Shown here: one piece after another, positions 15,114-45,728 of the stretch
Numbering within the stretch: the stretch's first letter is position 1
Layout: the number at the start of each line of letters is the position of its first letter
NCBI GenBank assembly: GCA_958295495.1
Contig: OY282352.1
Span: forward strand, 3,598,548 to 3,662,547
DNA length: 64,000 nt
Direction of reading: 5' to 3'
DNA from: an uncultured Latescibacterota bacterium
GTDB taxonomy: Bacteria > Latescibacterota > UBA2968 > UBA8231
Position numbers and translations under genes: made by a program
Notes under the pieces: model-generated
What the model was told of the DNA's origin: nothing
What the model saw: the letters and a program-made list of their open reading frames with translations, nothing else
Database searches by the model: none

Positions 15114-15119
15114 ACTCCC

Positions 15120-26319: not shown

Positions 26320-26355
26320 GGTGTAGGCCCATCTAGGCGATTGGCCGCGAGAACC

Positions 26356-28266: not shown

Positions 28267-28277
28267 ACTTCCTCGCT

Positions 28278-28298: not shown

Positions 28299-28318
28299 TT
28301 GTGCATGGATTTTTCGGT

Positions 28319-28433
28319 TGCCATGTTGCTCAATCTTGGCATCCTTGCGGGGCGGAATGATCGGCCGAATGGGTGGCCCCCGCGCCGACTCCTCGGTCTG
28401 AATCACCAGTTCCTGTTGCAGCATCATGCCTCC
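28319..28433 (-). pseudogene. Decayed fragment of exbB
   Basis: The minus strand reads MLQQELVIQTEESAR, matching MQRELADLKEELVIQTEESAR in the cytoplasmic loop of the intact ExbB (8897-9643). It is followed by a weaker match to the GKNLAILNTIGN region. Only this internal part survives. Confidence 0.72.
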
Positions 28434-28439
28434 TCTACG

Positions 28440-28600
28440 CTGTCCCTAGACACTGCGGCAATGGCCTCGTCCGCCGCGAGGTATTTTCCCAGAAGCGCGG
28501 GAACGTCCCCGGCCAATTTCCACTTTCCCTAAAAGCCTGCCTTGTCTTCAAAGTCGAGAACGGCGACGCACACGATAAAATCCGCACTCTCTTGCCGCCC
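28440..28600 (-). pseudogene. Decayed fragment of the CsgG-like gene
   Basis: The minus strand reads VLDFEDKAGF, then a stop codon, then GKWKLAGDVPALLGKYLAAD. This matches LLDFEDRAGFQAEWHLSRD and VPDLLGRYLDADDAVF of the intact CsgG-like protein at 9676-10614. It sits just after the intact lipoprotein gene, in the order and direction expected of the unbroken operon. Bases 28601-28663 show nothing else. Confidence 0.8.
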
Positions 28601-28663
28601 CCGGGTCGCTCCAGCGGCGAAGATGCAGAGGAGCGCCCCTCGGCGTGCCCCTCGGACCTATCC

Positions 28664-29425
28664 CTAGGGCGCGGCGGTCGCCTGTTGCACTGCCTTCCTT
28701 TCGATTTGTTGATCGAATTCGACAATGATGTCCACTGTTTCTATGGGCTGTTCGGAAGCGTCGAATTTCAGGACGAAATCCTTGAGTACCAAGCGCACCT
28801 GCCGCACTTCCTCGTCGAGCCGTTCAAAGGCTAGCAGACCAGTGTAGTTTTCTCCCTTGAACACTTTCTGGTCCTCTATATAAGCGGTGCTGCGTACATT
28901 GCCCATGCGCAGGTCGAAACGGTAGAACTCGTTGCCGCTCTGGCCCCGGATGGCCCGGTAGTAGCGCTCGAAACTATTGTGCGGCGAGAAAGACGGCAGG
29001 CCAAAGGAATGTAGCACCTCGCCCCGATCAGTGTAGAGCAGGGCCTTGATGGGGTCCAGCATGACCTTGGCGTACACATCGTTGGTGACGCTGATGCGGA
29101 ATACAGTGAAGCGCTTGGGCGTATGGCCCACGAGCGGGTCGATCCAGTCCCCGTATGTATAGGGGTTGGTGGAGAAGAAACCCCGGTGCGAGTCCTCGGG
29201 GAATATAGCGTTTAATTCCGCGTCGGTCATGGACTCGACTTTGACGCGCAAGCCTTCGACGGCGTAGGTGATGGCTCCAGCCTCCTCCACATAGTCCTTC
29301 GGGCTGGCCTGCTGGGCACTGGGGATCAGGTCGTTATTGTACAGAATACTAGGCGGCGTGAAGAAACTGCACCCGCTGAAAACCAGCAGTAAGGCGGCAA
29401 AAAAACGCATGATCGCGTACCTCAT
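28664..29425 (-). CDS. Envelope lipoprotein of the ExbBD-linked operon
   Basis: The 253-residue product has a lipoprotein signal (MRYAIMRFFAALLLVFSGC) with the acylated Cys at residue 19. The mature part has no domain I can name. It contains PYTYGDWIDPLVGHTPKRF and DFVLKFDASEQPIETVDI, and seems mostly beta-strand. It is probably anchored to the outer membrane. Its ATG overlaps the stop of the DUF4159 gene (ATGA), so the two are translationally coupled. The 3' end was duplicated at 10715-10830. A part in a surface machine is inferred from operon context only. Confidence 0.72.
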   Translation of the reverse strand: MRYAIMRFFAALLLVFSGCSFFTPPSILYNNDLIPSAQQASPKDYVEEAGAITYAVEGLRVKVESMTDAELNAIFPEDSHRGFFSTNPYTYGDWIDPLVGHTPKRFTVFRISVTNDVYAKVMLDPIKALLYTDRGEVLHSFGLPSFSPHNSFERYYRAIRGQSGNEFYRFDLRMGNVRSTAYIEDQKVFKGENYTGLLAFERLDEEVRQVRLVLKDFVLKFDASEQPIETVDIIVEFDQQIERKAVQQATAAP

Positions 29426-30657
29426 TGACTACTGACCTGACTGTAAAAGTCGATTTGCTGCTGGGCGATGGAGCCCTCTTGGGTGAGGGCGAAAATAACG
29501 GCATTGATGCCAAAGCGCAATTGCGGCTCGTTGCCGTACAACTGAGCCCAGTTGTGCACATATCCCTTGTCCGAATAAATTCCCACCAAGCGGTTGTCCA
29601 AGAAAATCCCCTCGAGGTTGTACACCGACTCGGCAATAGTCTGGAAATTCTGGCCTCGCTGATCGGCAAAGGAGCCGACCTGCAATTCCGAACCGACGGG
29701 CGGACCGTCGAAATCGTAGAACGTGTGGTAAATGGGATGCGTATTGTGGATGGGCCGCAGGGTCCCTTGGGCACCCAAGGCATCGCGGAAAATCTGCCGC
29801 AGCGAGGCCTCGGCTTGGCTGAATTCGAGCGTGGGGGTGGCGTTGTCGACAAAGATAAAACCCCCGTTGTGCAGGTAAGCGCCCAAGTTGTGCATTTCGC
29901 GCTCGGTCAGCTCAAAAGCTTCGTTCGCGGTGATGTACACAAAAGGCGTGCGGAAGAGTTCCTGCGAATCGAGGAAGAGGTGCTCGTCGACTTTGGCGGT
30001 GATGCCCGTCTGCTCATTGAGCGCATCGACCAGATTGGGCACGGCCTTGGCGGCACTGTCAAAGATCGGCTCTAGGTCCGTGGCCCAGGCCGTGCCCAGA
30101 TAGACGAAGCCCTTGACGTTCTTCTTGTCCGTCGGGTCTTGGATGATTAGGCCCTTGTACTTGCCCGTGTCCAGCGCATCGAGGTCGAGCAATTCTTCGC
30201 GCATGGCAATGCGCTTCTCCGGCTCCTTGGTACCCTTGACCCGGGCGGCCGACAGCTCGATGGAAGTGGTCTGCAAATCAATCTGCACGTCGGCTTCCGC
30301 GGCGTATTCAAAAGTCTCAATGCGGCCGAACACCGAGGCACCGGGCAGGCGACGGGCCGTGGGCGCAGCCTGCCGGGGTTTCATGGTGGTCACCTGCTTG
30401 GTCATGGCCCGGGGGCGCAGGCGATGGCGTTTGAGGGCAAACGGCTTAGTCGATTTGGGCTTGCGGATGATGAGCCGGGTGACCGCCGGCGGAGGCGCGG
30501 CCCGCTCCTTGGCCACCACGATGAAATAGGCTATCCCCCCCGACGATAACACTAAGGCGATGGCCAATCCCCAGATGGTGGCGCGATAGGTCTTGAGCAG
30601 GCGACTCAAGCGCAGCTCGTCGCTCGGCACCCTGAAACGAGTTCGGTCTAGCGGCAT
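29422..30657 (-). CDS. DUF4159-domain protein with one membrane anchor
   Basis: The 411-residue product has a short cytoplasmic N-terminus, one membrane helix (about 27-48), a basic/proline-rich linker (about 50-105) and a periplasmic domain. From about residue 190 the GLIIQDPTD.., FRTPFVYITANEAFELTE and GAYLHNGGFIFVDNA blocks match DUF4159, a glutamine-amidotransferase-like fold with no known activity. The topology (single helix, K/P-rich linker, periplasmic domain) resembles TonB/TolA-type couplers, which would suit an ExbBD partner; this is inference. It overlaps the next lipoprotein gene. Confidence 0.78.
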   Translation of the reverse strand: MPLDRTRFRVPSDELRLSRLLKTYRATIWGLAIALVLSSGGIAYFIVVAKERAAPPPAVTRLIIRKPKSTKPFALKRHRLRPRAMTKQVTTMKPRQAAPTARRLPGASVFGRIETFEYAAEADVQIDLQTTSIELSAARVKGTKEPEKRIAMREELLDLDALDTGKYKGLIIQDPTDKKNVKGFVYLGTAWATDLEPIFDSAAKAVPNLVDALNEQTGITAKVDEHLFLDSQELFRTPFVYITANEAFELTEREMHNLGAYLHNGGFIFVDNATPTLEFSQAEASLRQIFRDALGAQGTLRPIHNTHPIYHTFYDFDGPPVGSELQVGSFADQRGQNFQTIAESVYNLEGIFLDNRLVGIYSDKGYVHNWAQLYGNEPQLRFGINAVIFALTQEGSIAQQQIDFYSQVSSQ

Positions 30658-30674
30658 GGGATCCTATCCCTCTT

Positions 30675-31058
30675 CTAGGGCACTTCTAAGATAAAGGGCT
30701 CGGATTGCGGCCCGAAAAAATCGCGGGCGTTGACCGCCCACACGCGAATCTGCCAAACGGTCCCCGATTCGGTACTCAACGATCCATCGTCGGCAAAGGC
30801 GCGGGCTTCCGGGTCTGGTACTGCCTTGGTCTCCATGCCGCCGCTGGCGTCCGTGAAGCTGACGACGAAACCGGCGACATTCTCCGCGGTGGCCATCTGC
30901 CAAGACACGCTCACGACCCCTCCCTCTACCCCCGCCTGCACATCGGTGGGTTGGGCGAGGAGACCTCGATGGTACTGGGAAGGCATCTCCGTGTCGTTGC
31001 TGCAGGCGACTAGGGCCACTAGCGCCGTTCCTGCAAAAAGGCATATCGCTCTATACAT
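30675..31058 (-). CDS. Small lipoprotein with a fibronectin type III-like domain
   Basis: The 127-residue protein carries a lipoprotein signal (MYRAICLFAGTALVALVAC) with Cys19 as the lipidated residue. The rest is one FN3-like beta-sandwich: PTDVQAGVEGGVVSVSWQMA, then GFVVSFTDASGG and WQIRVWAVNARDFFGP, the usual strand pattern. AGGGAG lies eight bases before the ATG. It sits between DUF5683-like and DUF4159 genes in the envelope operon and may be a scaffold on the periplasmic face of a membrane. Confidence 0.8.
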   Translation of the reverse strand: MYRAICLFAGTALVALVACSNDTEMPSQYHRGLLAQPTDVQAGVEGGVVSVSWQMATAENVAGFVVSFTDASGGMETKAVPDPEARAFADDGSLSTESGTVWQIRVWAVNARDFFGPQSEPFILEVP

Positions 31059-31083
31059 GCCCGAACTCCCTACGAGGATGCTG

Positions 31084-31635
31084 TTAAAAACGGGCCACTA
31101 AGCCCATGCCCAAGGCGTTGGCAGCGGCCATGGGCACCAAATTGACGGCTTTGCCCACCACGGGTGCGCCGCCGTAGAACAGCACATCCAGCACATTGTA
31201 GCTGTACGTCGCCAAGCTCAGGACGCCAAAGATGCGGCGCAACAGATGGGACCGGTCGAGATCGTCTTTCTTGTCCGCCAGTCGTTGCCAACTCTCCTCG
31301 GCTTGGGCAAAAGTGCCGGCATCCCGCAACGCTTGGTAGCGCTCCTTTTCCAGTTTGAATTGCACTTCCTGGGTATTGAAGTCCTCGTGCGACGTCAACC
31401 AGATCACCAGACAGCCCATCTCGGCTACCATCAGGGTCGTGCCCTTGGGCTTGTGGCCGGTGGCCAACTGGCCCAATCCGGGAAAGATCAGGGATAGACC
31501 AATAGCCTGCAGGCGCGAGACACCGCTCTGACGCACCTCAAAGCGCTTTGCCGGTGCCTCTTGGGCCCAAAGCCCTTGGCTGGCGAGGAGCAACACGGCG
31601 CTGCCCAAAATGATCGTCAAGGGTCGTATCAACAT
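31084..31635 (-). CDS. DUF5683-like membrane protein
   Basis: The 183-residue protein has an N-terminal signal-like helix (MLIRPLTIILGSAVLLLASQG) and further hydrophobic stretches near IGLSLIFPGLGQLATGH, the hallmark of DUF5683-type proteins. Two more membrane segments lie at MVAEMGCLVIWL and in the last 50 residues, with a charged helix between them (about 90-130). Such proteins often lie in FCB-group envelope operons; the function is not known. The ATG at 31635 has GAGGA eight bases upstream and is preferred to the TTG two codons earlier. Confidence 0.75.
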   Translation of the reverse strand: MLIRPLTIILGSAVLLLASQGLWAQEAPAKRFEVRQSGVSRLQAIGLSLIFPGLGQLATGHKPKGTTLMVAEMGCLVIWLTSHEDFNTQEVQFKLEKERYQALRDAGTFAQAEESWQRLADKKDDLDRSHLLRRIFGVLSLATYSYNVLDVLFYGGAPVVGKAVNLVPMAAANALGMGLVARF

Positions 31636-31683
31636 AGCCAAATCCTCATTTGTTGTCTCTACCTCCGGCGGTGCAAAGCAAAT

Positions 31684-34600
31684 TCACAAGCGCGTACTGA
31701 CGATCCAATCCCGGTGCGACTTGGCAAATTGGAAGGCTTCTCGCGAAGCCCGTTTGTCCTCGTACAGGCCGATGACTTGGTCGTATACTTCGACGGCGTC
31801 TTTCCACTTGTTCAGTCCCTCCAGACACACGCCCAAGTTGCTGAGAGCTCCCAAGGCACTCTCAGTCTCGGGGTAGCGCTCCATCACCTCCTCGAAAACC
31901 TCTATCGCCTCCTCGAAATAGCGCTGATCTTTGGTCACATCGGCCGAATCCATCAAGGCCACGCCCCGCTCGTAGAATTCGTAGGCCACCGACTCCTCCA
32001 ACTCGGCGATCAAGCGGGGGACCTGCTCGGCCACCGGCGCGTCGGCGTAGCGCTCCCGCACCTTATTGTACGCGTCTATGGCCTCCTGATATGCCCGGCG
32101 GTTGTACGCGTAATCGCCCAGCGTAAACTGTGCCGAGGCGGCAAATTCGCTCTCGGGATAGCGGCGCAGCAATTCGGCCATGGCCTCCATGGCCTCTTCA
32201 TCGCGCTTTAACTCGATGAGGCACCAGGCTTTGTTGTACTGGGAGTTGTCCGCCGCTGTCTCGGCGGGGAACTCGGCGAGGATGCGGTCGTACAGATCGA
32301 GCGCTGGGGCGAACTCCCCGAGCTGATAATAACTTTCGGCCGCGCCAAAGAGCATATCCGGCAATTCGCTCGCCCGCGGGTAATCGCTCAACAGCCCGAG
32401 AAACTCGCGCTGGGCGTCCTCGAATTCGCGCATGCTGTAGTGCGTGTTGGCCAAGTAGAAGCGCACCAGTAGGTCCTGACTCAGCTCGAGGCCAGCTTGG
32501 CGCAGGGCACCAAAGACCTCCTTGGCCCGGTTGAGCTGGTCCCGGTCGAAGTAGTGGATGCCCAGCGCCAAGCGCATATCCGTGGCGAATTCCGATTCGG
32601 GATACTGGTCTAAGGCTCGGCCAAATACCTCGACCGCTTCATCCCCCCGCCCCAAACGCGACAGGGCATCCCCCAAAACAAAGTACGTACGCTCCCTGAG
32701 TAGGATGGTCTGACCGGGGGCCAATTCGTCGGCAAAGGACAAACGGAGTACTCGCCGGGCAAAGCGGACGGTCTGCCCGTAGTCATCGCGCTCGTAGTGC
32801 AGATCCATCATGCGGCCCAAAATTTCGGCCTGCTCCTCCAAGCTCTTGGCATTAGTCACCATATCTTCAAGGACCTGTATGGCCTCGCCGCCCCGGTCCT
32901 GCTTCAGGTAGGACAGGGACAGAGCGTTTTCCGCCGAGCGCACTTTCTCTGGGTCTTCGACATGGTCAATGATCCATCTGAAGTCCTCCTCGGCTAGGGC
33001 GTAGTTTTCCATGACAAAGGCCGCATTCCCCCGGCTGAAGCGCAACGCTTCTTCCAGCCTGCTGCCGCCCTCGACATGCTCGAGGGCCTGCGAAAAGTGG
33101 TCGATGGACCGCTGGTACGCCCCCTCTCCGTTATGCGCCTGTCCTATCAAATAGTGGAAACTAGCGCACTGGTCAGCGTCGGCCCGCTCCAGACCCGCTA
33201 TTAGGACTGGAATGGCCTCGGTTAACTGGCCTTGGGTCACTAGGGTGTGGCCGCTGCCCAGCCGCGCTCGGGCAAAATGGGGCGACTCTGGGGCGACGGC
33301 CAAAAAAGCCTGGATAGCTCCATCTGGATCGCCCAAAGTTTGGCGAGCCAAGGCCAAGCGCATATAGGCGTCGTCGGCGTAATTGCTTTCCGGGAAGCGG
33401 TCCAACAATTGTCGCGCCCGCTGTGCCGACGCCTCGTATTCGCCGCGCCCGTAGTGCAGTTCGCCCAATTGCACCAAGGCGCGCTGCACATAGCCCCAGT
33501 TGCGCCCTTCCCCGACAATGACTTCAAAAGTGCTCTGGGCCCGGTCGAGAGCCTCTTGTCCGCCCTGCGACTGGTGCGCCAGGGCGCGGTTGAAACGAGC
33601 GTCCAAGCCATAGGGCGAGCCTTCATCGCTCAGCACGGTATCGTATTGGGCGATGGCCCGCTCGAGCAAGTCGTTGGCACCGGCCCGGTCGTCCTCGCCC
33701 AGCCGCGCCTGGGCCATCTGCTGGTACGCGCTGCCGATGCGATAGCGCACCCGTTCGAGCGAAAAACCCGCGGCGGCGGCAATATCGCCATAGCCCCGGA
33801 GATAGATGCGGTATTCTCGGATCGCCTGCTCATATTGGCCGTGGGCGAAGAGGCGCTCGGCCAAGGCATATTGAATGCGAGCCCTCAGAGTGCGATCGGC
33901 CGATTGGTCAATGGCCTCGCGGTACGTCTGCAGGGACGTCGCCAAATCGCCCTGCTCTTGGTAGAGATCGGCCATGCGCAAATAGGCCTCTTCGACTAGC
34001 CGGCGCTCCGTGCTAAAGAGGACGATCACCCGCCGATAGGCTGCCACCCCCTCGTCGTACCGCCCCAGCTTGGTGAAACAATTACCCACGCGAATCTCGG
34101 CCTTGGCCGCCAGCTCCAGCGCGGTTTCGTCGACCAGACCGGCCAGTTTCTCCCGCCGCATCTGATTGAGTTGCTCTTCGGTGAGTTTCTCGATGCGCTG
34201 GCGTTTGACTAGGCGGCGGTAGTGTTCAATGGCCTGTAAGTACTCGCCTTGTTCCTGATAGGATTCACCTATTTGAAAGAGGCTGCGGTCGGCTTGGTAA
34301 CCCGTGGGATAGAGTTCGAGCAACTCTTTGAAGGCGGCAATCGCCCGGGTGTAATTCTGCACTTCGTAAAAGGCCCAGCCTCGGTTATAATAGCCGCCCA
34401 CGGCTCGCGGATCGCCCGGATAGGCCGCGATCATGGCGTCGGCGGCCTCAATCACCTCGAAGTAGCGCCCGGCTTCAAAGTACAGATCGACCAGCCGACC
34501 AAAGGCCTGGACGCGCAACACCTCGTTGGCGGCCATTTCGCTGATCTGGCGAAAGGCCCTCACCGAGCGGGCAAAAGCGCTGTCGGCCTGCGCCTGAAAG

Positions 34601-34932
34601 CCCTCTCGGCGCTCCCGATCGCGCGCCTCCCCGGCAAAGCGGGAAAAATCGGTGAAGAGCTTGCTGTACGCATTGCCAATCTGGTAATTGGCGGCTTCCA
34701 GCACGGGAAAACTCTCCGATCCCACGCTCACCGAGATCTTCTGTGTATCGAGCAAGCGGCTGCGCACCTGCAGGATTTCCTCATAGCGGACAATGGCCTG
34801 ATCATACGCGCCTTCGGCGTAAAATGCCTGGGCGTCGCGGAAGGAAGCCACCAAATCGTCCCGGTTCGGGGTGCGCCCGGCAAACTGCGTCCCGAGGACC
34901 GTGACCAGAGCCAAGACAAGGACGAGATTCAT
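31684..34932 (-). CDS. Large periplasmic TPR-repeat protein
   Basis: The protein has 1082 residues. A signal peptide (MNLVLVLALVTVLGTQFAG) and AGGAGG nine bases upstream fix the start at 34932. Nearly all the rest is TPR-like repeats: many copies of a pattern such as AFYAEGAYDQAIVRYEEIL, YPGDPRAVGGYYNRGWAFYE and YPESEFAASAQFTLGDYAYN, about 25 or more helical pairs. They resemble YbgF/BamD-type repeats that bind peptides or lipoproteins in the periplasm. It lies between the barrel-like trio and the small membrane genes. It probably scaffolds the envelope machine, comparable to the TPR proteins of gliding or secretion systems (inference). Confidence 0.85.
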   Translation of the reverse strand: MNLVLVLALVTVLGTQFAGRTPNRDDLVASFRDAQAFYAEGAYDQAIVRYEEILQVRSRLLDTQKISVSVGSESFPVLEAANYQIGNAYSKLFTDFSRFAGEARDRERREGFQAQADSAFARSVRAFRQISEMAANEVLRVQAFGRLVDLYFEAGRYFEVIEAADAMIAAYPGDPRAVGGYYNRGWAFYEVQNYTRAIAAFKELLELYPTGYQADRSLFQIGESYQEQGEYLQAIEHYRRLVKRQRIEKLTEEQLNQMRREKLAGLVDETALELAAKAEIRVGNCFTKLGRYDEGVAAYRRVIVLFSTERRLVEEAYLRMADLYQEQGDLATSLQTYREAIDQSADRTLRARIQYALAERLFAHGQYEQAIREYRIYLRGYGDIAAAAGFSLERVRYRIGSAYQQMAQARLGEDDRAGANDLLERAIAQYDTVLSDEGSPYGLDARFNRALAHQSQGGQEALDRAQSTFEVIVGEGRNWGYVQRALVQLGELHYGRGEYEASAQRARQLLDRFPESNYADDAYMRLALARQTLGDPDGAIQAFLAVAPESPHFARARLGSGHTLVTQGQLTEAIPVLIAGLERADADQCASFHYLIGQAHNGEGAYQRSIDHFSQALEHVEGGSRLEEALRFSRGNAAFVMENYALAEEDFRWIIDHVEDPEKVRSAENALSLSYLKQDRGGEAIQVLEDMVTNAKSLEEQAEILGRMMDLHYERDDYGQTVRFARRVLRLSFADELAPGQTILLRERTYFVLGDALSRLGRGDEAVEVFGRALDQYPESEFATDMRLALGIHYFDRDQLNRAKEVFGALRQAGLELSQDLLVRFYLANTHYSMREFEDAQREFLGLLSDYPRASELPDMLFGAAESYYQLGEFAPALDLYDRILAEFPAETAADNSQYNKAWCLIELKRDEEAMEAMAELLRRYPESEFAASAQFTLGDYAYNRRAYQEAIDAYNKVRERYADAPVAEQVPRLIAELEESVAYEFYERGVALMDSADVTKDQRYFEEAIEVFEEVMERYPETESALGALSNLGVCLEGLNKWKDAVEVYDQVIGLYEDKRASREAFQFAKSHRDWIVSTRL

Positions 34933-34966
34933 GTGCCGACGCCTCCTGTGGAAAAGTAAAAGCTCA

Positions 34967-37900
34967 TCACTCGTATTCAAATCCCAGAATCACATTTATA
35001 TAGGCGGCGATAAATTCCACATTGGCCTCGCCAGCCACATCCAGATCGTCGAACTCCTTGACGCGGCGGCGGAGACCCATATTGGTCGAGATCAGATAGC
35101 CGAAGTACTTTGAATCGTTGGTCAGCATAAACACAATATCGCTCTGTTCGAAGTCCCGGCGCACGTCGGCCAGATCGTTCACGCTGTAGGGGAGCAGCGA
35201 CCCCAGTCCTTGGACGCCGAGTTGGAAGCGGGTTCGGCTGGTCAGGCGGTACTCCAGCTTGGTCAGCGGGATCAGATTGCGCTCGTGCAGGGTGGGCAAC
35301 TTTAGGCTGCGTCGCCACTCCTTGAGGTAGCGGAATTTGAAACCGGCGAAAAGGGTCAACTGATCGGCCAGCGGCCAAGTGTAGTCGATCTTATGCACCA
35401 TGGCCCAGCGGCTCAGACGGTCGCTCTCCTGAAAGGTGCCGTCGAAGAGTTCGCCCTCGCGCTGGGCATTGATCTCGTACTTGACTTTATTGCGCATATT
35501 GAGCCGGGGGATCGCATTCCAACGGGCATCGGTGAAAAAGCGCAAATATCTGCTGTCCTTGAAAAGCAGTGGATCATCGCGCTCCTCTTCGATAAAGGGG
35601 GCGAGTTGGATATTGCGCTGGAAGCCCGGGAAATCGAGTTCGAATAGTTCGGCCGTGGTCAGCACCCGGTCGCTGTACACACTCAGCGGATCCTCCACCC
35701 CGTCCTCCACTTCCTCCAGCGAGGCAACGGCAAAAAACTGGCCCACCGCCGGTACTTTGCGCCAGTAGGTCAAGCGGGTGTAGAGTACGTTGCTGGGGGC
35801 CCCGCCGGCATTCTGTTCGGCATCCATCAAGCCTACTGACCAAGTCAGACCAAGCGCTGGGTTGAACTGGCCGTACACGTGCAGCCCGCGCAAGTCGGGA
35901 TCGTACGGATAATCCGGGTCGGTGTCGTTCTCGCGCGCGTCGAGGAAGTCGTTGTGGTTCATGTCGAGGTCGTAGTCGTAGACTTGGGCGTCGACATCGT
36001 ACATGAGGAAGGGCTCGACGTCGTCCGGCGTGCCGTTGATGTTCTTGTTCTGGTCTGGATAGCCGTCGTTGTCCTCGTCCAGGCCCGGGAAAATGCCGTC
36101 GATGTCAGACTGGCCCAAGAAGAACATGCCCGGACTAGCGTGGTTGGTGTACCAGCTATCGGGGAAGCGATCGTTGTCGTCGTTGTCCTCGACCAACCGG
36201 TGGATGAGGGCGTCGTTCTGGGTGATCAGACTCCCCGTACAGCAACCTTCGTCGCGGCCGATAAAAGAGCGCAGCTCAGTATTGTAGTGCGGCCCCATGG
36301 AAAAGTATTCGCCGCCGAAGCCCCATAGCGGAAAGTCGCGCTTCACCGTGACGTAGAAGGCGTTGTCGCTGATGGTGCCGCGCTTGCCGGGACGCGCCTC
36401 GCGGTCGAGGGCGTTGATGCTGAGCGCGTCCCCGGGCACCCGCACCCCGGGAGGACCGCTCACGTAGTGGGAATAGCTGTTGCTGCGGGCGAATTCAGCG
36501 TTGATCTCAAAATCCTTGAGCACACCGTACACATTGGCGCTGTACAGGCGCACCCCTGTGGGCGTGCCGGCCCTGACCCGCACCCGCTCGACCGGCCCCT
36601 GCGGCGATGGCGTACCGTCGGCCCGCGCCACCGTGCGGAAGAAGGAGGCATAACGGTACTTATCGCGGTAATTCGACTCGGGCTCGTTGGGCTGTATGCC
36701 CCCGATATCGATCTCCGACAGTTCGATGTGGTAATCGCCCGAGATGAACAGGTCGACGTCGACCGACTCGATCCACTCGCCAAAGGGCTCCAAATCGACG
36801 TAGAGAATGCCGTACTCCCGGCCGTCAAAGGCCTGCGGCAGATCGGCCCGGGTGTGCAGACCGAGAAACTGTCCGTCGGGGTTTTCCGCGCTGCGCTCGG
36901 CCGCTTCGTGGGCGAACTCCTCGTGTACGGTGATGGGATCTTCGTCCTCGCGGTCGGCGTTGATCGCGTAATCCGGGCCGAACAACTTGAAGTCGCGGTA
37001 GTAGAGATGGCCGATCCAGAAGGGGAACTCATAGCCCCGGTAATAGACATTCGCGTCAAAGGCCGCGTAATTAATGTACGGGTCGTACGTGCTGGCGATG
37101 GCACCCCGGTTGATCGACTGGTAGTCGTTGCCGGTGCGGGGAAGGGGCTTGCGCTCGCCCGAACGGAGCAGATCTTGGGCGTAGGGCTGGCGTGCGGCCC
37201 CGCGCGTATCCAAGCGGACGATAAAGGGCTCGAGTTCCGGCTGTAACTCGCCGTTGACATATACGTCCACTCGGTGCAGCACCGCCCCGGTTACCCCTAG
37301 GCCGGGGGCGTCGTCGGCAATGCGGATGGCCAGCAGGGCCGGGGCGTTCTGGGCCGCCCCAGCTACCCCTTTGAAGGACAGGTCGTTGCTCGACATCAGC
37401 GGCTCGAATTGGTGGGCGTTGACAAAAGTACCGCCAAAGTGGAGAAAACCCACTTGGCGCTCGTAGTGCGCCCCGCCGATGAGAGCACCGGGGATGACTC
37501 CGCCGCCCGTGTGGCGGTTTCTCGAAATCAGGGCCGAGAAACTGTCCCGCTCGGTGCCCATGTCGAACCGCAAACCGTCGAGATTGGCCATCTTGAAGGT
37601 CAGGGGCGTAAACTTGGTGCGAATCTCATTGGCCCAGATGACCTTGGCCTGCCAAGCGTCGGTGCCGTCCGTGCCCACGATGACATTGTTGAACAGCCGT
37701 TCAAAGGCGACCCCGGCCTGACCGTGGCCCCCCCGTTCGCCTATGGAGGAGAAGCCGCGCTGGGCGCCCAGTCCCCGGCGCTCCCGCCAGTTGACCGAGT
37801 TCGAGCCGTAGATGAGGAAATCTCCTAAATCGCTGTAATAGGGCCGCAGCGTATTAGTAAAGGGCGGCAGCCGGGGGTATTCGGCAAAGCCGTAATTCTG

Positions 37901-38092: not shown

Positions 38093-38093
38093 A

Positions 38094-40886
38094 TCAAAAC
38101 AGGGGACTCAGGCCGGCGATCATGCGCAGGAAAACGCGCGAAAAGTCGATATCTTGGTCGTAGCGCGACCGGTCCTTGAACTTGCGTGTGCTCCTCTGAT
38201 AACCCGCTTCGACATTGATCTGGTAGCCTGTGTACGAGGATTTGTTGGTCACCAAGGCCACATAGTCCTCCCCGTCGAAATCCGCTCCCGGAGCCGCATT
38301 GTTGCGGTACAGGCTCTTGAGGAAGGGCAAACCCTGGGCGCCCACCTTCACGGCGGTGCGGTTCGAAATCGGGTACTCCATCCGCAAGATGGGATAGACG
38401 AAGTCCTCTTCAATCGGCAGTACTTGGCCCTCGTCGTTGAGGCGCTGGCGCAACCACTTGAACTGCAGCATCACCCGCGACTGCTTCCACGGCATCCACA
38501 GATAATCGGCCTTGAAGACCGTGGCCAGATCGGCGATGCGGTTGTCCGGCTGGAGGGGCGTGCGGCGCTGGAAGTTATTTTCCGACTTCAGGCTCACCTC
38601 GACATTGAGATTGGGCACGCGGATAAAGCGGGTGCGCATATAGAAGGTATTGACCCAACTATTGCGCATCAGCAGTGGATCGACCAGCAGCCGCGATGTG
38701 CCCAGCGGATGGCGCAATTCCTCCTCGGTGGGTAGGCGCAAGGGGATTATATCCGGGGTGAAGTATATGGGATCGCGCCCCAAGCCAAAGACTTCGTCCC
38801 CAATCTCGTCCTGCACTCTCTTGAGCCGCTCGACGGCGTAGAGCTCAACCAAGAAGGGCAGGCGGCGTTCGTACTCGTAGCGGCCGTAGTACACTTCGGC
38901 TTGGTCGCCTCCAAAGGGTGCCCAGGTCCGGTGGTAGCCCAGGGTCACTTTCATGTCCGAACGCGGCCGGTAGCTGCCAAAGCCGTGCAGCCCTCGTCGG
39001 TCCTGGTCGTACGGGTAATCGGGCTTCAAATCGTCTTCGCGATCGTCGATGACGCCGTTGTTATTGGTATCTTCGCCGTAGTCGTACGCGTCGGGATTGA
39101 CCTCGTAGAGCAGGAAGGCTTCGTAGTAGTCTGGGATGCGGTTGTTGTTCTCGTTGATATCGGGCCGGCCATTCAAATCGGCGTCGAGTCCAGGGAAGAT
39201 GCCGTCGGGATCCTCGATGAAACGCCCGCCCTCCAGACTGGTGGTTTTACGCAGGAAAAAGGTGTCGGGGAAGGGGTCTTTGTCGTCGTTGTCGTCCACT
39301 GTATCAAATTCGAGGGTGCGGGTGGCGTCGGCCCGGTTGGGGCCGAGGAAATCCGGCAGTCTGGGCTCTTGGAAATTGGTGGGGAACTGGAAGGGGCTGT
39401 TAATCAACTGGAAATAGGTCTGGTACGAGTCATCCTGCACGGACAGGCGGGTGGTGTACTCTGCGTCTATGTTAAAGGCTTCGCCGCCCCAACTGAAGTG
39501 CCCGAGATCTCGCCGCAGTACGGCGAACCAAGCCTGGCTCTGATCGAGCTGGTGCTGGCCCAAGGTGCCCAGCAGGGCCGGATAGGCGCGATACGAGAAA
39601 TTGCGCACGTACTCAGTCCGCAGCGAGTACCCCTTGACGTCTATATTGGCATGCACACTGGCTAGGGTGCGCCCGGTCTCCCGGCCGTAGCGCACTCGCA
39701 CTCGGCGGAAATTGTCGAGGTTGTCGGGCTTGCCCCGCGCCTGCCCGGCGGTATAGAAATATGTCGCTGGGTTAAAAGAGGCCCCATCGAATATCTCCGA
39801 CAATTCGAGCAGATAATCCCCGGCCACGTCGATCTCTATATCGGCTTTGTTGACGATGAGGGTATCGAGCCCATGGACAAAGGAGGAAGGCACCTGGAAC
39901 CAGAACAGTAGCGACCCCTCGCCCCGAGTTTCATAAACTCCCTGCGGGGTCGGTTCAATGTGTGGGAAGTTGATGGCTAGGTCGTTGCTCGAATCGCGAA
40001 AAATAGGCGGAATGATGGTGCGGTCCGGGTGTTCGGTGACCGTGAGCCGCAAGGCGACCGCGTCGAGTTTGTTGTAGGGCCCGGGCATGTGCACCAAGCG
40101 GCGGCCGTTGAGCACGACAGCGGCCCTGCGGACCCGCACACCGATGGCGTCGTTGGGGTCCTGGTCGGCCACGCGCAACACTAGCCACAGAGGGGGAGCC
40201 CCGGTGGTGGGCAGGGTCCCTTTGAAGCTGTTCTCGCCGAGAGTCTTAAAACTGTCGGTGCGGTACTGGTTGACCCAGCTCACGCCCAAGTCTAGGCCCG
40301 GCCGCTTGGTGCGCAGGTCGGTGCCCAGCAAATAGGTACTCCACGACGGCCTGAACTGCGACCCCTCGCGGCCGTGGACCACGAAGTCGGCATTTCTGAT
40401 GGCCTCGAAAATGGGTCGATCGACGCGTGATACAGCCAGCACCAGCGAGGCGTCCCTGAAGTTGCTGTCCACCCGGAGCCCGTTCATAGCCGCCAAGTCG
40501 AGGGTCAGCGGAGTGAATTTGGTGCGGATGCGATCGCCGACAATCAGGCGGGTATCCACGCCTTTGTACGAGTCGTTGGCAATGACCAAGCGATTGAGAA
40601 AATCACCGTACTGCCGCTCCTTGCCGATGATGCTTCCGGGCGTGGTCTGCAAGGAGCGGAATTCCTGCAGTTCAAAGACATTGACCCCGTTCATCACGAA
40701 CTGCCCCATATTGTCGAACTGCGGTGTGCGATCGCGGCCGAATACCAGACTCTCATACGGCCGGTATCCCTCGTACGCATAGTTGCGGTACGGCTCGGTG
40801 TTGCGAATGATCAACTGGGCATCCACTGCCGCGCCGCATGCGAGGGCCAAGGCCAGGAAGGATAGATGTCGGTTCGCGCCGCGCAT
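38094..40886 (-). CDS. Putative outer-membrane beta-barrel surface protein (paralogue 2)
   Basis: The 930-residue product has a signal peptide (MRGANRHLSFLALALACGAAV, DAQ). It shares GDRIRTKFTPLTLDLAAMNG with the neighbouring paralogues, an Asp-rich middle (DNDDKDPFPDTFF, FPGLDADLNGRPDINENNN) and a beta-rich C-terminus ending in FSRVFLRMIAGLSPLF. The ATG at 40886 follows the previous stop by one base (TGA-t-ATG) and is preferred to a TTG three codons earlier. An outer-membrane location with calcium-binding repeats is inferred. Loss of any one of the three would test whether they act as a set. Confidence 0.75.
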   Translation of the reverse strand: MRGANRHLSFLALALACGAAVDAQLIIRNTEPYRNYAYEGYRPYESLVFGRDRTPQFDNMGQFVMNGVNVFELQEFRSLQTTPGSIIGKERQYGDFLNRLVIANDSYKGVDTRLIVGDRIRTKFTPLTLDLAAMNGLRVDSNFRDASLVLAVSRVDRPIFEAIRNADFVVHGREGSQFRPSWSTYLLGTDLRTKRPGLDLGVSWVNQYRTDSFKTLGENSFKGTLPTTGAPPLWLVLRVADQDPNDAIGVRVRRAAVVLNGRRLVHMPGPYNKLDAVALRLTVTEHPDRTIIPPIFRDSSNDLAINFPHIEPTPQGVYETRGEGSLLFWFQVPSSFVHGLDTLIVNKADIEIDVAGDYLLELSEIFDGASFNPATYFYTAGQARGKPDNLDNFRRVRVRYGRETGRTLASVHANIDVKGYSLRTEYVRNFSYRAYPALLGTLGQHQLDQSQAWFAVLRRDLGHFSWGGEAFNIDAEYTTRLSVQDDSYQTYFQLINSPFQFPTNFQEPRLPDFLGPNRADATRTLEFDTVDDNDDKDPFPDTFFLRKTTSLEGGRFIEDPDGIFPGLDADLNGRPDINENNNRIPDYYEAFLLYEVNPDAYDYGEDTNNNGVIDDREDDLKPDYPYDQDRRGLHGFGSYRPRSDMKVTLGYHRTWAPFGGDQAEVYYGRYEYERRLPFLVELYAVERLKRVQDEIGDEVFGLGRDPIYFTPDIIPLRLPTEEELRHPLGTSRLLVDPLLMRNSWVNTFYMRTRFIRVPNLNVEVSLKSENNFQRRTPLQPDNRIADLATVFKADYLWMPWKQSRVMLQFKWLRQRLNDEGQVLPIEEDFVYPILRMEYPISNRTAVKVGAQGLPFLKSLYRNNAAPGADFDGEDYVALVTNKSSYTGYQINVEAGYQRSTRKFKDRSRYDQDIDFSRVFLRMIAGLSPLF

Positions 40887-40887
40887 A

Positions 40888-43542
40888 TCAACCAATATAC
40901 ACCTTGAAAAAGTACTCTATATAGCCCGTCGGCGGACGCAACGAGCCGGAGAATTCGGTAAAAGTCCGAAAAAATCCAATGAGAATGGTGAGGTCATAGC
41001 CGCTGTAATTACTCCTGTTCTGTAGAAAACCAGTATAGGTATTTCTGTGGAAATCGCGTTCGGGGTTGGCCGGATCAATAGAGCGCTCGGGCAGCAAGGG
41101 GAAGCCCTGGACGCCCGTCTTGAGGACGGTATTGGGCGTTATATTGTAGTCGACTTGCAAAATCGGGATCAACTGGCGCGTCTGTCTGTCGGGGATCTGG
41201 CGATCGGGAAATTTGCTGCGTCGGTACGTGTGCTTAAAGCGCGGCACAATTTCAAAGCGCTGCCAGTTATAGGTGTAGTCTATCTTGTTGGCCATGGCAA
41301 AGTGTGTAATGGTCCCCGGCGCTGCCAGCAGGGGATCGGCCGCAGCTCTGTCGCTCAGATCGACATGCTTGAAGGTGGCGATAGTGCGGATGTTCATCCC
41401 GGGCACGGTCCACAGGCCCCACTCGACATAGGTCAGATTGTCGATTGCGTCGCGGTTCTCGAGCAGATCCTGCTGCAGCGAACTCTGGCTGCCAAAGTTG
41501 AAAACCGTATTGGGGATGCCGTCTTTCACCCACTTGATCCGGTGGTTGGCGCGCACATAACCCAGATCCTGCCAGTCGCGCTGGTACTGGCCCTCGATGT
41601 ATTCGGCGTCGCTGTCCAATCCGAGGATGGGCTGTTCCATCCGGTACGCGCCCAAGCGCAATTGGGCGCGTGAGATGGGATTGTACCTGAGAAAAGCGTG
41701 GAAACCGCGGTGGTCAAGCGGGTACATATAGTCTGCGAGATTGTCGTTCTCCCTGAGGTCGGGCATGCCGTTGTTGTTGAAGTCGTCGCCAAAGGATAGA
41801 TCGGGTGAGTCCACGTGGTACTGCAGGAAAGGCGAGTTTGAACCCGTGGCCGCAAAATCGAGAATGCCGTCGCCGTCGAGATCCAGGCCCGGAAAAACGC
41901 CGTGGCCCACGCCTTGGGAATCGAAGTAGGGATCAAAGGGATCGTCGTGCTCCAACTCGTCGGGCCAATCGTCGAGATCGTCGTTGTCTTCGACTAGGTT
42001 AAAAGGCTGGTACAGCCTGCCGCCCACAGTCGGCCCCACGCCCGAACTCTGGAAGATGGGGAATTCCGTATTGTAGTCGTCCGGAATGTCGAACCACTCA
42101 CCGCCGACGTCGACCCGGTCGTGCAGGGACTTGAGCACATTGAAGTAAAAGACCGCAGAGTCGTGCGCTCGGCGCTTGCCCCGATCGGTGGGCATTTTGA
42201 GGTAGTTCGTGCTGCGGGCAAATTCGCCCTTGATCTCAAAGCCGAGGATCTGAGCATCGAAATCTAGACCCATGATGCTCAAACCCGTAGGAAAACCGTA
42301 GCCGAAGCGCACCTGGTGCAGATTTGACCTGTTGCGCGGATGACCCTCCGCCCGCAGAGCGTGGTGCCAATCGTAGTAGAAGTCCTCCTCACCCGAGGCC
42401 AAGAAGGGCACCTGCACAGCACCGACCACATCGACGCTGTAGTCGTCGGCTAGGAGGGCCTCAAATTCGATGTCAGAGACCGTATCCGGCACAGCGAATT
42501 GGTAAAAGACCACATCGGTACCGCTGGCCCGCAGCGGTGCATTTCGGGCGGGCGGGAGCACCTCTCGGGCTATGTTTTCAAACACAGCGGAGAAAAAGGG
42601 CCGATTGCTGGCCTCAACCACGGGTTGCAGCCAAGACTGGTTGCGCCGCAGATAGTGGATTTCGTTGGGCTTGATCTGGATCGTGCTGGTCAGGTCCGGC
42701 GTTATGGTGAGCTTGTCAGTGAGCTTGTCGATACGCCCCACCCTCAGCGGCTCGACCAAGACGCCGTCGGCCCGCATGACCACTTGGTGGATCTCCGCCC
42801 CTTCAAAAGAATCGTTGGGCGCGTCGTCGGTAAAGAAGACGAATACGGTTTTCAAGCCGCCTTGGACCAGCCTAGGGACCGCGCCTTTCAAGCCGTTGAT
42901 CTTGTCCGAAGCTTCCGAATCAAAGCGGTGCGTATTGACAAAGGTCGTGCCCAAGCGCAGAAAATCGCCTATGCGGCTCTGCCAATGTCCGCCAAAGAGC
43001 GAAGTGCCGAAAACGCGGAAATTCTGCACGGCGGCGTCGGGGGCCAAGGCACCGGTGCGAAATTCGAGGGGATTGGTCAGGTGGGCGGCGACCATGCTAA
43101 AGCTGCTCTTGCGCGACGAGCCATCCCAGCGAATGCCGTTAAAGCGAGGCAGGTTCAGAGTCATGGGCGTGAAATATGTCCGCACGTGGTCGCCGATGAT
43201 CAGGCGCGTCGACCAGCGGCCAAAGCCCTCTTCGGCTATGACGAGCTTGTTGAAAAAGCCGTCGTACCGACCGTGGCGCGATTCAAAGCTGCCCCTGACC
43301 CCAGGTGCGTCGCGTCGCACTTCGCTGAATTCGAGGATATCGACGCCGTCGATGAGCAAATCGCCAAAGAGATCAAAGCGGCGGTTCTCCTCTTCGAGGT
43401 CGTAATCTCGGTACCCGGCTCCGCCGTAGTTTTCAAATACCTCGTTGGCCCATAGCGCGCGAAAATCCCGCGACAGAAACTGGCCGCGGGCCTCCTCAAC
43501 GCTCAGGGTCAGGCAGACCAGAAAGACAGAGAAAGTACGCAT
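40888..43542 (-). CDS. Putative outer-membrane beta-barrel surface protein (paralogue 3)
   Basis: The 884-residue product has a signal peptide (MRTFSVFLVCLTLSVEEARGQ). It shares GDHVRTYFTPMTLNLPRFNG with the two downstream paralogues and an Asp-rich middle (EDNDDLDDWPDELEHDD, FPGLDLDGDGILD). The C-terminal third has alternating amphipathic strands, ending in FFKVYIG. It is the first of the three tandem barrel-like genes, 56 bases after the discoidin/FlgD-Ig gene. No family assignment was possible. Outer-membrane localisation is inferred from the strand pattern. Confidence 0.75.
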   Translation of the reverse strand: MRTFSVFLVCLTLSVEEARGQFLSRDFRALWANEVFENYGGAGYRDYDLEEENRRFDLFGDLLIDGVDILEFSEVRRDAPGVRGSFESRHGRYDGFFNKLVIAEEGFGRWSTRLIIGDHVRTYFTPMTLNLPRFNGIRWDGSSRKSSFSMVAAHLTNPLEFRTGALAPDAAVQNFRVFGTSLFGGHWQSRIGDFLRLGTTFVNTHRFDSEASDKINGLKGAVPRLVQGGLKTVFVFFTDDAPNDSFEGAEIHQVVMRADGVLVEPLRVGRIDKLTDKLTITPDLTSTIQIKPNEIHYLRRNQSWLQPVVEASNRPFFSAVFENIAREVLPPARNAPLRASGTDVVFYQFAVPDTVSDIEFEALLADDYSVDVVGAVQVPFLASGEEDFYYDWHHALRAEGHPRNRSNLHQVRFGYGFPTGLSIMGLDFDAQILGFEIKGEFARSTNYLKMPTDRGKRRAHDSAVFYFNVLKSLHDRVDVGGEWFDIPDDYNTEFPIFQSSGVGPTVGGRLYQPFNLVEDNDDLDDWPDELEHDDPFDPYFDSQGVGHGVFPGLDLDGDGILDFAATGSNSPFLQYHVDSPDLSFGDDFNNNGMPDLRENDNLADYMYPLDHRGFHAFLRYNPISRAQLRLGAYRMEQPILGLDSDAEYIEGQYQRDWQDLGYVRANHRIKWVKDGIPNTVFNFGSQSSLQQDLLENRDAIDNLTYVEWGLWTVPGMNIRTIATFKHVDLSDRAAADPLLAAPGTITHFAMANKIDYTYNWQRFEIVPRFKHTYRRSKFPDRQIPDRQTRQLIPILQVDYNITPNTVLKTGVQGFPLLPERSIDPANPERDFHRNTYTGFLQNRSNYSGYDLTILIGFFRTFTEFSGSLRPPTGYIEYFFKVYIG

Positions 43543-43598
43543 AGGCTCGACGAATCTCTCAGTTGCGGCACTAATAGCTGTTGTACCAAACGCATCCG

Positions 43599-45728
43599 CT
43601 AATAGGCCAATCCCACCACTCCGGTGACAATTTCATCGTCGGGGTCCAGATCGACGATGACGCGGTAGAGGTACAGCCCTGGCGGCAACAATTCCCCGCT
43701 GTCCGAGCGCCCATCCCAGCGGCCCGGCAACGACCTCCTCCCACCCTCAATCGGGGCGTACAGGCCGGCGTCCAATGACTGGCCGGGTAGGGTGCGCACC
43801 AACCTGCCGCCCAAATCGTACAATTCGATGTCAACTCGGCCCCCCTTGACGCGCGCCAAGGTGAAGCCCAGCACCACCGCGTCATTGATTCCATCGCTGT
43901 TGGGGGTGAATACCTTGGGATGGGCCTCGACATCGGCGAGAATGGGCAATTTGAAGTCAGTAGTCACCGCGGTCAGCGAATATTCGCGTTCAGTGTCGGG
44001 ATCAACGCCCTCGAGTGGCTGCACCAAAAAGGGCGAAGTGGACTCCGGGGCGAAAACCAGTCCCTGGAAATTGTGGGTAGCAGCCAACATGCGGGTGGTG
44101 AAGGGAATGAGTAGATCAGCATCGGCACCGATGGGCGGGTCAAAGGCTATGATCAGGGAATCGTTAGTCGCGTACGTATTGGCCGCGTCAATGGCGGCTC
44201 TGTCCACCCCCTCTATGCCGTCCACATCCAAGCGCGCCGGCCACGGCGTCAGGATGGCCAGACGCGACACTCCCGCATCGCCATTGCCAAAGCGGAGCAC
44301 GAGCGAATAGGTGAAGGTCGTATCTACGCCAATGGGCACTTCCAGCGGCACCACTGCGGCCAAGGCCTCGGCTGCAGCCAAATTGCCCGTATTGAAAGAC
44401 ACCCCTAGGCTGTCGAGGCGCGGACCGCTAGCCAGTTCGCCGGTCGCCATGCGCACCTGGTACTGGAAGAAGCGCCGCGGTTCGGGGACATTGGGCAGAA
44501 TTTCCCGCTCCCGGCTCCAAGGCGACCAATCGCTCCAAGCCTCCCCGTCGCTGCCGCTGCGGAAGCGCAGATCCATCTCGGCTCTGGGCGGGACATCCCC
44601 GTACCAGCGCACTCGCCCGAAGTCCTTGTTGTCCTCTAGGCCAAAATCCAGCGGCGGCGATAGGTACGTCCCCTGCTCAACCACGCCTTCGCCGAAGACT
44701 TCGATCTCGCCTACCCGGGGGTTTGAGTTGCGGTTGGCAAACTCGGTCACCACTAGGCGTACAAAGCGCGTCGGCGTGGTGGGAAAGAGGACCGCGGTCT
44801 CTTGGAATTCGGCGATCTGGTTGCGCGCCGCCACATCGAGGAAGCTGACCCCATCCTTGCTCACCAAGATGCTGTACCCGCGCAACGAGTGTTCCTCCCA
44901 AGTCAGCCGCGACGGCGGCTGGGTGAGCACTCGCACCCGGTTGACCGGGAAGAGGCGACCCATATCGATCTCGACTCTCTGCAGCAGGGCGCTGACCCCT
45001 TTGCGGAAAGTCACCGGGGTGTTGACATTTCCGTCGACGAGCTTGGGTTCGTCCGAGAAGGTGTTGAAGGCGAGATTCTCGCCCTCCAGCGAGCGCAGTT
45101 GCAAACCGCCTCTGCTGGGATCTATATCGCCGGGAAAGCCGGCTAGACTCTGGGCCCGCGTCTGATCGAGGTCGGCAAATTCGGCGAAATCGCTCGGGTC
45201 GAGACTGCCGGCTTGGGAGGGCAACCACCTCACCTCCAGACCGTCCTCCTCGTGTTGGGCCAGTTTGTTCTGCTTGATCTCGGTCCAATCGGCTCCTTCT
45301 TCGTTGGGCAGCGGGAAACCCGTCCAGAACCAAGGCGTTATGCGATCCGTGGGCGAACTGACGAACTGCACGTCCTCTGCATCGATCACTAGAAAAAAAC
45401 CGTATTCGGGCCGTGTGCCGCTGTACTCCACCGCCACCGCAATGATATTGGCCCGCCGCTTAAAAGAAGCCTCCCACGTCTCCACGGTCGTCGGATCGTC
45501 GTCGGTGCCCACCAGGTCGCCATTGAGATACAGGGCGTACTTACCGCCGGCAGCAATGCGAATCTCGCCATCTGTCTTGGCGGCGAATTCAGCGTAGCCC
45601 AGATAATAAGAAGTAGCGGGAAAAGTACTGATGGTAGTGCGTTCTTGCGCGGCGAGATGTCCTGGCAGCATCAACAAGGCCACTCTGGCTACGAGCCACT
45701 TTAAGCTCTTCGCTTGTGTTATGCCCAC
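43599..45728 (-). CDS. Secreted discoidin-like protein with TPNSDG / FlgD-Ig ending, first gene of the envelope operon
   Basis: The product has 709 residues. A GTG at 45728 with AGGTGG upstream starts a signal peptide (LKWLVARVALLMLPGHLAAQ); the frame is open further upstream, but without signal features. A discoidin-like region (about 210-390, with DGNVNTPVTFRKG and RVRVLTQPP) and a beta-rich middle precede FTPNSDGINDAVVLGF to WDGRSDSGELLPPGLYLYRV. It is a paralogue of the pair at 15967-20306. As the first gene of the long minus-strand run it may display ligand-binding domains on the surface. The stretch 45729-45998 upstream has no recognisable gene. Confidence 0.78.
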   Translation of the reverse strand: MGITQAKSLKWLVARVALLMLPGHLAAQERTTISTFPATSYYLGYAEFAAKTDGEIRIAAGGKYALYLNGDLVGTDDDPTTVETWEASFKRRANIIAVAVEYSGTRPEYGFFLVIDAEDVQFVSSPTDRITPWFWTGFPLPNEEGADWTEIKQNKLAQHEEDGLEVRWLPSQAGSLDPSDFAEFADLDQTRAQSLAGFPGDIDPSRGGLQLRSLEGENLAFNTFSDEPKLVDGNVNTPVTFRKGVSALLQRVEIDMGRLFPVNRVRVLTQPPSRLTWEEHSLRGYSILVSKDGVSFLDVAARNQIAEFQETAVLFPTTPTRFVRLVVTEFANRNSNPRVGEIEVFGEGVVEQGTYLSPPLDFGLEDNKDFGRVRWYGDVPPRAEMDLRFRSGSDGEAWSDWSPWSREREILPNVPEPRRFFQYQVRMATGELASGPRLDSLGVSFNTGNLAAAEALAAVVPLEVPIGVDTTFTYSLVLRFGNGDAGVSRLAILTPWPARLDVDGIEGVDRAAIDAANTYATNDSLIIAFDPPIGADADLLIPFTTRMLAATHNFQGLVFAPESTSPFLVQPLEGVDPDTEREYSLTAVTTDFKLPILADVEAHPKVFTPNSDGINDAVVLGFTLARVKGGRVDIELYDLGGRLVRTLPGQSLDAGLYAPIEGGRRSLPGRWDGRSDSGELLPPGLYLYRVIVDLDPDDEIVTGVVGLAY

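Follow-up and report, generated by a model that had tools for sequence, protein, structure and literature searches.

Of the proton-motor systems extending to the outer membrane, only a few kinds, namely Ton, Tol, Agl-Glt, and GldLM, are understood. A 2025 survey stressed that more proton-motor systems await discovery and described vWA force transducers tethered to the inner membrane, which occur with TPR proteins, tolQ, and paired tolR, and whose function is unknown (PMC12204202). In the Glt core complex, one ExbB and two ExbDs are combined with TPR proteins, outer-membrane parts, and a transducer with FHA and TonB_C domains (PMC3169522; the Agl-Glt gliding machinery is also treated in PMC5349195). 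The combination of one ExbB with two ExbDs is common in Ton operons as well (PMC4446302). Here, we analyzed a 64,000-nucleotide window (C1:3598548-3662547) of the single-contig, 5.97-Mb genome of an uncultured Latescibacterota bacterium. It holds a set of about ten genes, conserved in this phylum and apparently not described before, which very probably encodes one motor-driven machine.

ExbB, two ExbDs, a DUF4159 protein and a TPR protein (both with a transmembrane (TM) anchor), two lipoproteins, a protein termed CsgG-like, and large barrels are inherited together. From their sequences we infer that the set is motor-driven and a machine, which would probably act at the cell surface, where it would drive transport or movement. 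That the two gene blocks of the window form one dispersed operon for a trans-envelope machine driven by the proton motive force, used for energized transport, is a reading that we hold as readily as we doubt it. None of Ton, Tol, Glt, or the type IX secretion system (T9SS) matched the set in full, and the set is thus regarded as a variant of proton-driven trans-envelope force transducers and a member of none of these systems. The original prediction, a motor-driven envelope machine encoded by a rejoined operon, was supported in its interpretation and partly confirmed in its observations.

Gene order in the window and in relatives

All operon genes named in the original prediction were found on the minus strand of the window, the match for DUF5683 being weak. 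Starts were called by a simple codon-usage caller, so that N-termini are approximate. One block is a nine-gene operon that runs from 45683 down to 28664 with intergenic gaps of 1-56 bp. It begins with DISC, a discoidin-domain surface protein with a CHU_C/FlgD-Ig-type C-terminus (43599..45683; Pfam F5_F8_type_C E=3.6e-7, CHU_C E=2e-4), whose start is uncertain (the open reading frame (ORF) opens at 45827). Three paralogues of BARR, a predicted large outer-membrane barrel, follow: paralogue 1 with 884 amino acids (aa) and an Asp-rich loop (40888..43542; assigned by paralogy, the BARR profile, and the barrel prediction of its paralogue), paralogue 2 with 930 aa (38094..40886; modeled with AlphaFold2 and compared with Foldseek), and paralogue 3 with 1041 aa (34967..38092; paralogy and 60% identity with the counterpart in locus L123). 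Further downstream lie a TPR protein of 1082 aa with an N-terminal hydrophobic anchor in its hydropathy profile (31684..34932; Pfam TPR_6 E=9e-53), a DUF5683-like protein (31084..31635; E=3.8e-4, under the Pfam cut-off, and syntenic homologues), the small lipoprotein SMALL of ~127 aa (30675..31058; lipobox-like LVALVAC and syntenic homologues), the DUF4159 protein (29422..30657; Pfam E=1.4e-28), and LIPO, a lipoprotein of 248 aa with a predicted Ig-like fold (28664..29410; AlphaFold2 and LIPO family members in the genome).

The other block lies on the same strand at a distance of 18 kb, with plus-strand genes in between. It consists of the CsgG-like gene (9676..10548, ORF opening at 10791; 88% identical to its syntenic counterpart in L123) and exbB-exbD-exbD (8043-9643), i.e., ExbB (8897..9643; Pfam MotA_ExbB E=1.8e-28; 89% to L123), the first ExbD (8456..8872; Pfam ExbD E=1.8e-28), and the second ExbD (8043..8450; Pfam ExbD E=8e-30), each ExbD belonging to a clade of its own.

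Relatives are named Candidatus Latescibacterota (FCB group) in GenBank, with some records named otherwise, e.g., Gemmatimonadetes. Loci, genomes, and families are labeled L, G, and f, respectively; G000 is the window genome and G050 a congener. In the closest copy of the operon (L123, RKRN01000058.1, Latescibacterota PNGco_C_bin1), both blocks are united on a single strand in the order BARR-BARR-TPR-DUF5683-SMALL-DUF4159-LIPO-CsgG-like-ExbB-ExbD-ExbD. This type of order was also found in L124, L125, L085, L086, and L087, as far as the contigs reach (L083/L124 and L085/L125 are apparently identical contigs). The CsgG-like protein, ExbB, and the two ExbDs of the window share 88-95% identity with their L123 counterparts; the other proteins share 48-74%. 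A second layout, with three BARR genes followed by DUF5683-SMALL-DUF4159-ExbB-ExbD-ExbD-DUF4340-TPR-TPR-LIPO-CsgG-like, occurs in L127 (which stops after the ExbDs), L131, L132 (where SMALL was not called), and L134. The distant families f6 (L089) and f7 (L097, L101) have the order TPR-DUF5683-SMALL-ExbB-ExbD-ExbD-DUF4159-LIPO. BARR precedes TPR in both f7 loci, and none was seen in L089, where the start of the TPR ORF coincides with the boundary of the retrieved sequence. One-strand operons with the motor, DUF4159, and partner genes thus amount to at least eight independent loci in three families, as expected from the proposed co-occurrence of the genes.

Since the halves are contiguous and collinear in relatives, the two window blocks were rejoined as one operon. 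The assignment of exbB-exbD-exbD and the CsgG-like gene to the operon at 28.7-45.7 kb was therefore correct; to speak of a rejoined operon is right in view of the single operon of relatives, although the operon is not contiguous in the window. A relic of the LIPO 3'-end (residues 210-245; 10706..10816, minus strand; profile E=9e-7, with a stop) adjoins the CsgG-like gene; its nucleotide identity is 86% with the LIPO tail of L123 and 75% with the complete LIPO gene of the window. On the simplest reading, an intervening segment of ~17.8 kb (10817..28663), which is not at this junction in L123, L124, and L125 and lies outside the machine by its gene content, would have ended up between LIPO and the CsgG-like gene, splitting the operon.

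Alternatively, an ordinary Ton-type exbB-exbD-exbD set might merely lie near an unrelated surface-protein operon. The distance between the blocks fits this explanation, as do the 20 Plug-bearing receptors of the genome, which need a motor. However, a canonical exbB-exbD-exbD-tonB operon at C1:3.412 Mb already serves the genome, and its ExbDs stand apart in the tree described below. Together with the LIPO relic at the break and the collinear single operons, which span several genera and three families, this makes a chance neighborhood very improbable.

Paralogous operons with variant gene orders are further support for one machine. The window genome contains LIPO-PorV-like-TPR-ExbB-ExbD-DUF4159 (L023) and TPR-ExbB-ExbD-ExbD-LIPO (L024), and the congener G050 contains DISC-PorV-like-BARR-TPR-ExbB-ExbD-ExbD-LIPO (L075) as well as ExbB-ExbD-ExbD divergent from TPR-DUF4159-LIPO-small gene-DISC-BARR-BARR (L078).

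The intervening segment encodes transglutaminase, DUF6785, 3-keto-disaccharide hydrolase, discoidin/FlgD-Ig, epimerase, and GH4 proteins. Decayed DUF6785 transporter gene fragments were found at 23600-28266 together with a truncated duplicate of the C-terminal portion of the 26356-28263 FlgD-Ig protein, which is 60% identical at the aa level and matches at 73% as inverted DNA; both are signs of local rearrangement in the insert. Beside the split point, at 10925-13009, lies a 36%-identical paralogue of a transglutaminase-like gene that replaces exbB-exbD-exbD of the second operon type, on the opposite strand, in L128, L129, L130, and L026. In G000 this second operon type is also dispersed, with DISC, three BARRs, and DUF5683-like at 5.53 Mb (C1:5524001-5544000, L154) and SMALL-DUF4159-(transglutaminase, opposite strand)-DUF4340-TPR-TPR-LIPO-CsgG-like at 3.505 Mb (C1:3505001-3525000, L063/L026). 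A promoter/terminator scan gave nothing informative.

Motor, putative transducer, and outer-membrane parts

The TM aspartate of ExbD is the proton carrier. It is found within MTPLIDCVF in both ExbDs of the window, and the Thr-bearing TM2/TM3 stretches are kept in ExbB. The best NCBIfam equivalog scores of ExbB and the ExbDs were those of TolQ/TolR, far under the cut-off. A maximum-likelihood tree placed the first ExbDs of the operons in one group and the second ExbDs in another (16 rows each, with supports of 90/82 and 96/93), and both groups stood apart from the long-branched ExbD pair of the genome's TonB operon. Judging by this tree, ExbD-1 and ExbD-2 are anciently distinct.

The DUF4159 protein is the putative force transducer. 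Its TonB/TolA-like layout was correctly predicted: an N-terminal TM helix is followed by a basic, Pro-rich linker (~15% Pro, 28% Lys+Arg) and the DUF4159 domain (residues 200-391). The protein matches PDB 4i66 (Hoch_4089) with E=5e-14. DUF4159 was the sole domain found; Pfam gave no TonB_C and no vWA match, and at the sequence level DUF4159 and PDB 4i66 were matched instead of the latter. A hidden relationship between DUF4159 and TonB was also considered and rejected, as hhalign gave no profile match to the genome's TonB.

Ser and His in the TM helix are the residues that bind TonB and TolA to their motors. The TM helix of the window protein, ATIWGLAIALVLSSGGIAYFIVV, contains no His and lacks the SxxxH motif. 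Ser-x3-His was detected by a scan in the TM helices of the homologues in L028, L064, L100, L138-L142, and L148, and that of L023 reads LSVTIH by eye, like LSVCIH of TonB. With the TM His lost in the window subfamily, motor binding may differ from that of TonB.

In the window genome, 13 matches belong to the wider DUF4159 family, and some of them are unrelated to the module (e.g., in L027). Among plasmid relatives, a single weak DUF4159 match was obtained, in Corynebacterium. In the literature search, no paper was found that mentions DUF4159 or DUF6785. Several copies of a ~710-aa FlgD-Ig-tailed protein family (L028, L029, and window 50785-52917; 57-70% identical) lie repeatedly near a DUF4159 protein, one of which has a TonB-like SxxxH TM helix and a basic/Pro-rich linker; this family may represent another use of DUF4159 transducers. 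In each of the f7 genomes G007 and G008 (L149, L151), DUF4159 transducers gave about ten matches, some of them in runs of three. In G006 (C790:4501-5415), a SprA profile match (positions 591-654, E=2.8e-10) lies just downstream of a DUF4159 match, apparently in one 418-aa frame, and comparable short SprA-like matches occur in other genomes.

The three BARRs of the window are mutually 26-30% identical. The AlphaFold2 model of paralogue 2 (pLDDT 70.7) has ~26 long strands, and its Foldseek matches were outer-membrane barrels with low TM-scores, led by SlpA (E 4.8e-10) and followed by MtrB, LptD, and TonB-dependent receptors. The model thus supports BARR as a predicted large outer-membrane barrel with no closer family. 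An Asp-rich DDND/DNDD motif is present in 64 of 67 BARRs. In-frame stops were flagged in some BARR matches, and in the one case compared, from the window genome, the stop was terminal. The LIPO model (pLDDT 87) is Ig-like with YjhA (3cfu) as closest structure (TMt 0.6, E 0.003). Neither BARR nor LIPO had a Pfam or NCBIfam match or a significant hit in a PDB sequence search. The CsgG-like protein likewise had no match in Pfam or NCBIfam, which leaves its proposed identity without support from these databases. The TPR protein matches YbgF/CpoB-type TPRs.

The AgmX/PglI domain NF033768 forms the C-terminus of long LIPO homologues (375-419 aa) and scored above the curated cut-off in 8/8 tested, and GltG or GltJ models match the same C-terminal stretch in most of them. 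The domain was found only on long LIPO homologues. By profile matching, these proteins are a domain-level link to the Myxococcus gliding proteins GltJ/GltG.

Distribution and surface clusters

Of 64 genomes of the phylum, 38 encode LIPO and 39 encode BARR. Their presence was concordant in 63/64 genomes and 10/10 families, with G006 as the sole mismatch (Fisher p=6e-17, uncorrected for kinship), in line with the proposed co-occurrence. The DUF4159 subfamily (E<=1e-60) was present in 26 genomes, all of them BARR-positive (26/39 vs. 0/25 of the BARR-negative genomes). SprA (63/64) and Plug domains (64/64) do not track BARR/LIPO; families f2, f3, f4, and f10 have SprA and neither BARR nor LIPO. 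With Plug domains in every genome, a machine replacing TonB-dependent receptors was ruled out.

Two short DUF4159 peptide patterns, scanned against 84,980 genomes, yielded 26 loci, all labeled or plausibly Latescibacterota; two are labeled Nitrospinota and Aminicenantes, and their phylum could not be confirmed. The patterns are narrow, so absence outside the phylum does not follow, and the sensitive profiles covered Latescibacterota only.

The window genome contains 14 clear LIPO copies and two fragments, and G050 contains 15; many LIPO copies belong to additional BARR/discoidin clusters. Within 10 kb of 60 LIPO genes, BARR was found for 32, DISC for 32, TPR for 24, DUF4159 for 16, and ExbB for 13, many of these neighborhoods ending early at contig ends. 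Other recurrent neighbors were FG-GAP/UnbV proteins (28), a 300-aa family (23), one member of which matches CBM9, PpiC-type peptidyl-prolyl isomerases (15), and DUF6785 membrane proteins (10). DUF6785 lay within 10 kb of 7/14 LIPO genes in G000 (1.8 expected, p about 0.001) and of 5/15 in G050 (2.0 expected, p about 0.05). Separately, L030:2156-3961 holds an adjacent nucleotidyltransferase-type gene pair whose products are 93% identical, a recent tandem duplication.

Comparison with known systems and proposed role

The vWA transducers are the nearest published idea (PMC12204202). They share the ground plan with the operon, i.e., a TPR protein, ExbB/TolQ, two different ExbD/TolR proteins, and a TonB/TolA-like protein of TM helix, linker, and globular C-terminal domain with a fold other than that of TonB/TolA. 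Unlike in them, this domain is DUF4159 in the operon, with no vWA match in Pfam, and giant barrels, LIPO, SMALL, and the DUF5683-like and CsgG-like proteins are encoded in addition.

With Agl-Glt (core aglRQS and gltC, D, E, G), the operon shares one ExbB with two ExbDs, TPR proteins, outer-membrane parts, and the AgmX/PglI domain of the long LIPO homologues. The last of these upholds the resemblance noted in the original prediction; the motor composition, in contrast, is common in Ton, including the tonB operon of the window genome, and by itself does not point to Agl-Glt. In a gliding or adhesin-moving machine of this type, the motor would pull LIPO and BARR laterally and the discoidin proteins would act as surface-gripping adhesins. 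The parts in common with the Glt core complex (PMC3169522), the GltJ/GltG domain, and the discoidin/FlgD-Ig surface proteins within the clusters are consistent with such a machine. However, the inner-membrane transducer carries DUF4159 instead of FHA and TonB_C, no GltG-type transducer is encoded in the operon, and the AgmX/PglI domain sits on a lipoprotein and is lacking on the window LIPO. Moreover, the BARRs comprise 884-1041 aa compared to 209-275 aa for GltH, GltA, and GltB (PMC3169522), and sixteen LIPO copies per genome better fit a transport repertoire than a single motility engine. We therefore consider a gliding role unlikely for these bacteria, which are known from metagenome-assembled genomes.

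T9SS (GldLM, SprA, PorV) has surface proteins with a C-terminal domain (CTD) in common with the set, and one paralogous operon (L023) includes a PorV/PorQ-like gene. In a phylum lacking GldLM, the motor could serve SprA-type secretion, through which discoidin and FlgD-Ig proteins with a CTD would be exported. SprA is encoded in the window genome (618 bits), DISC proteins have CHU_C/FlgD-Ig tails, and no GldM match was obtained in a search run without a positive control (GldL was not searched). Nevertheless, SprA lies elsewhere in the genome, unlinked to these operons, and its distribution (63/64 vs. 38-39/64 genomes, four families having SprA alone) is independent of the machine. We judge such a role improbable, and the suggested likeness to SprA-type systems was not supported.

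The features shared with Tol-Pal are the TolQ/TolR equivalogs nearest to ExbB and the ExbDs and the YbgF/CpoB-type TPR match, whereas TolA, TolB, and Pal were not found in the operon by Pfam. The predicted lack of TonB, TolA, TolB, Pal, and T9SS core genes is thus true locally, but not for the genome, which has exbB-exbD-exbD-tonB, SprA, and a PorV/PorQ-like protein. A Zorya-like defense system was rejected in the absence of a PADLOC match. That no known machine accounts for the set agrees with the original prediction.

Ton shares with the set an ExbB/ExbD motor with the ExbD TM Asp, the topology of the DUF4159 protein, SxxxH in some relatives, and, in Ton/SusCD, many outer-membrane units per motor. 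It differs in the TonB_C transducer and in Plug/SusD domains, none of which was detected in the locus by Pfam, and the canonical TonB operon is separate. Few motors with many outer-membrane units are the arrangement of Ton systems. On this cluster multiplicity and the transporter neighbors we favor energized transport over adhesin movement, although this evidence is thin; a transport role is about an even call, and import rather than export is somewhat less likely than not.

Several observations weigh against the proposed transport machine. BARR has no Pfam Plug domain and no recognizable coupling box, and neither the window DUF4159 protein nor its nearest relatives possess the TM Ser/His. The clusters in L139-L141 have no exbBD nearby, L142 has only distant ExbB/ExbD-like genes 8 kb off, and exbB-exbD-exbD has disappeared from the second operon type in the genus of the window (L128, L130). 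The enrichment of DUF6785, which has no known substrate, is weak in G050. Discoidin and FlgD-Ig domains fit adhesion as well as uptake, and the complex, its motor activity, and its localization are all predicted from sequence.

In the proposed mechanism, proton flow through an ExbB pentamer would turn or shift a mixed ExbD-1/ExbD-2 axle, and the DUF4159 protein would be bound to the motor through its TM helix, as TonB is. This protein and/or the TPR protein would pass force across the periplasm to LIPO and the barrels, and pulling cycles would open or move the barrels together with discoidin-type surface partners. A few motors would serve many BARR-DISC-LIPO clusters, most likely so that polymers bound at the surface are carried through the barrels by energized transport, following the logic of Ton/SusCD with different components. 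Somewhat speculatively, the set could represent a proton-driven outer-membrane machine of a class distinct from Ton, Tol, and Agl-Glt, expanded to as many as about sixteen surface modules in a genome. In such a machine, the ExbB/ExbD-1/ExbD-2 motor, DUF4159 transducer, and TPR tether would act on ~26-strand barrels through LIPO, which in some lineages would bear the AgmX/PglI coupling domain.

The operon provides a defined, conserved parts list for a proton-motor outer-membrane system. It gives DUF4159 a concrete, testable role as force transducer and places a gliding-type coupling domain on a lipoprotein. The large, unnamed family of BARR-DISC-LIPO surface clusters may explain how polymer degraders handle material at the cell surface.

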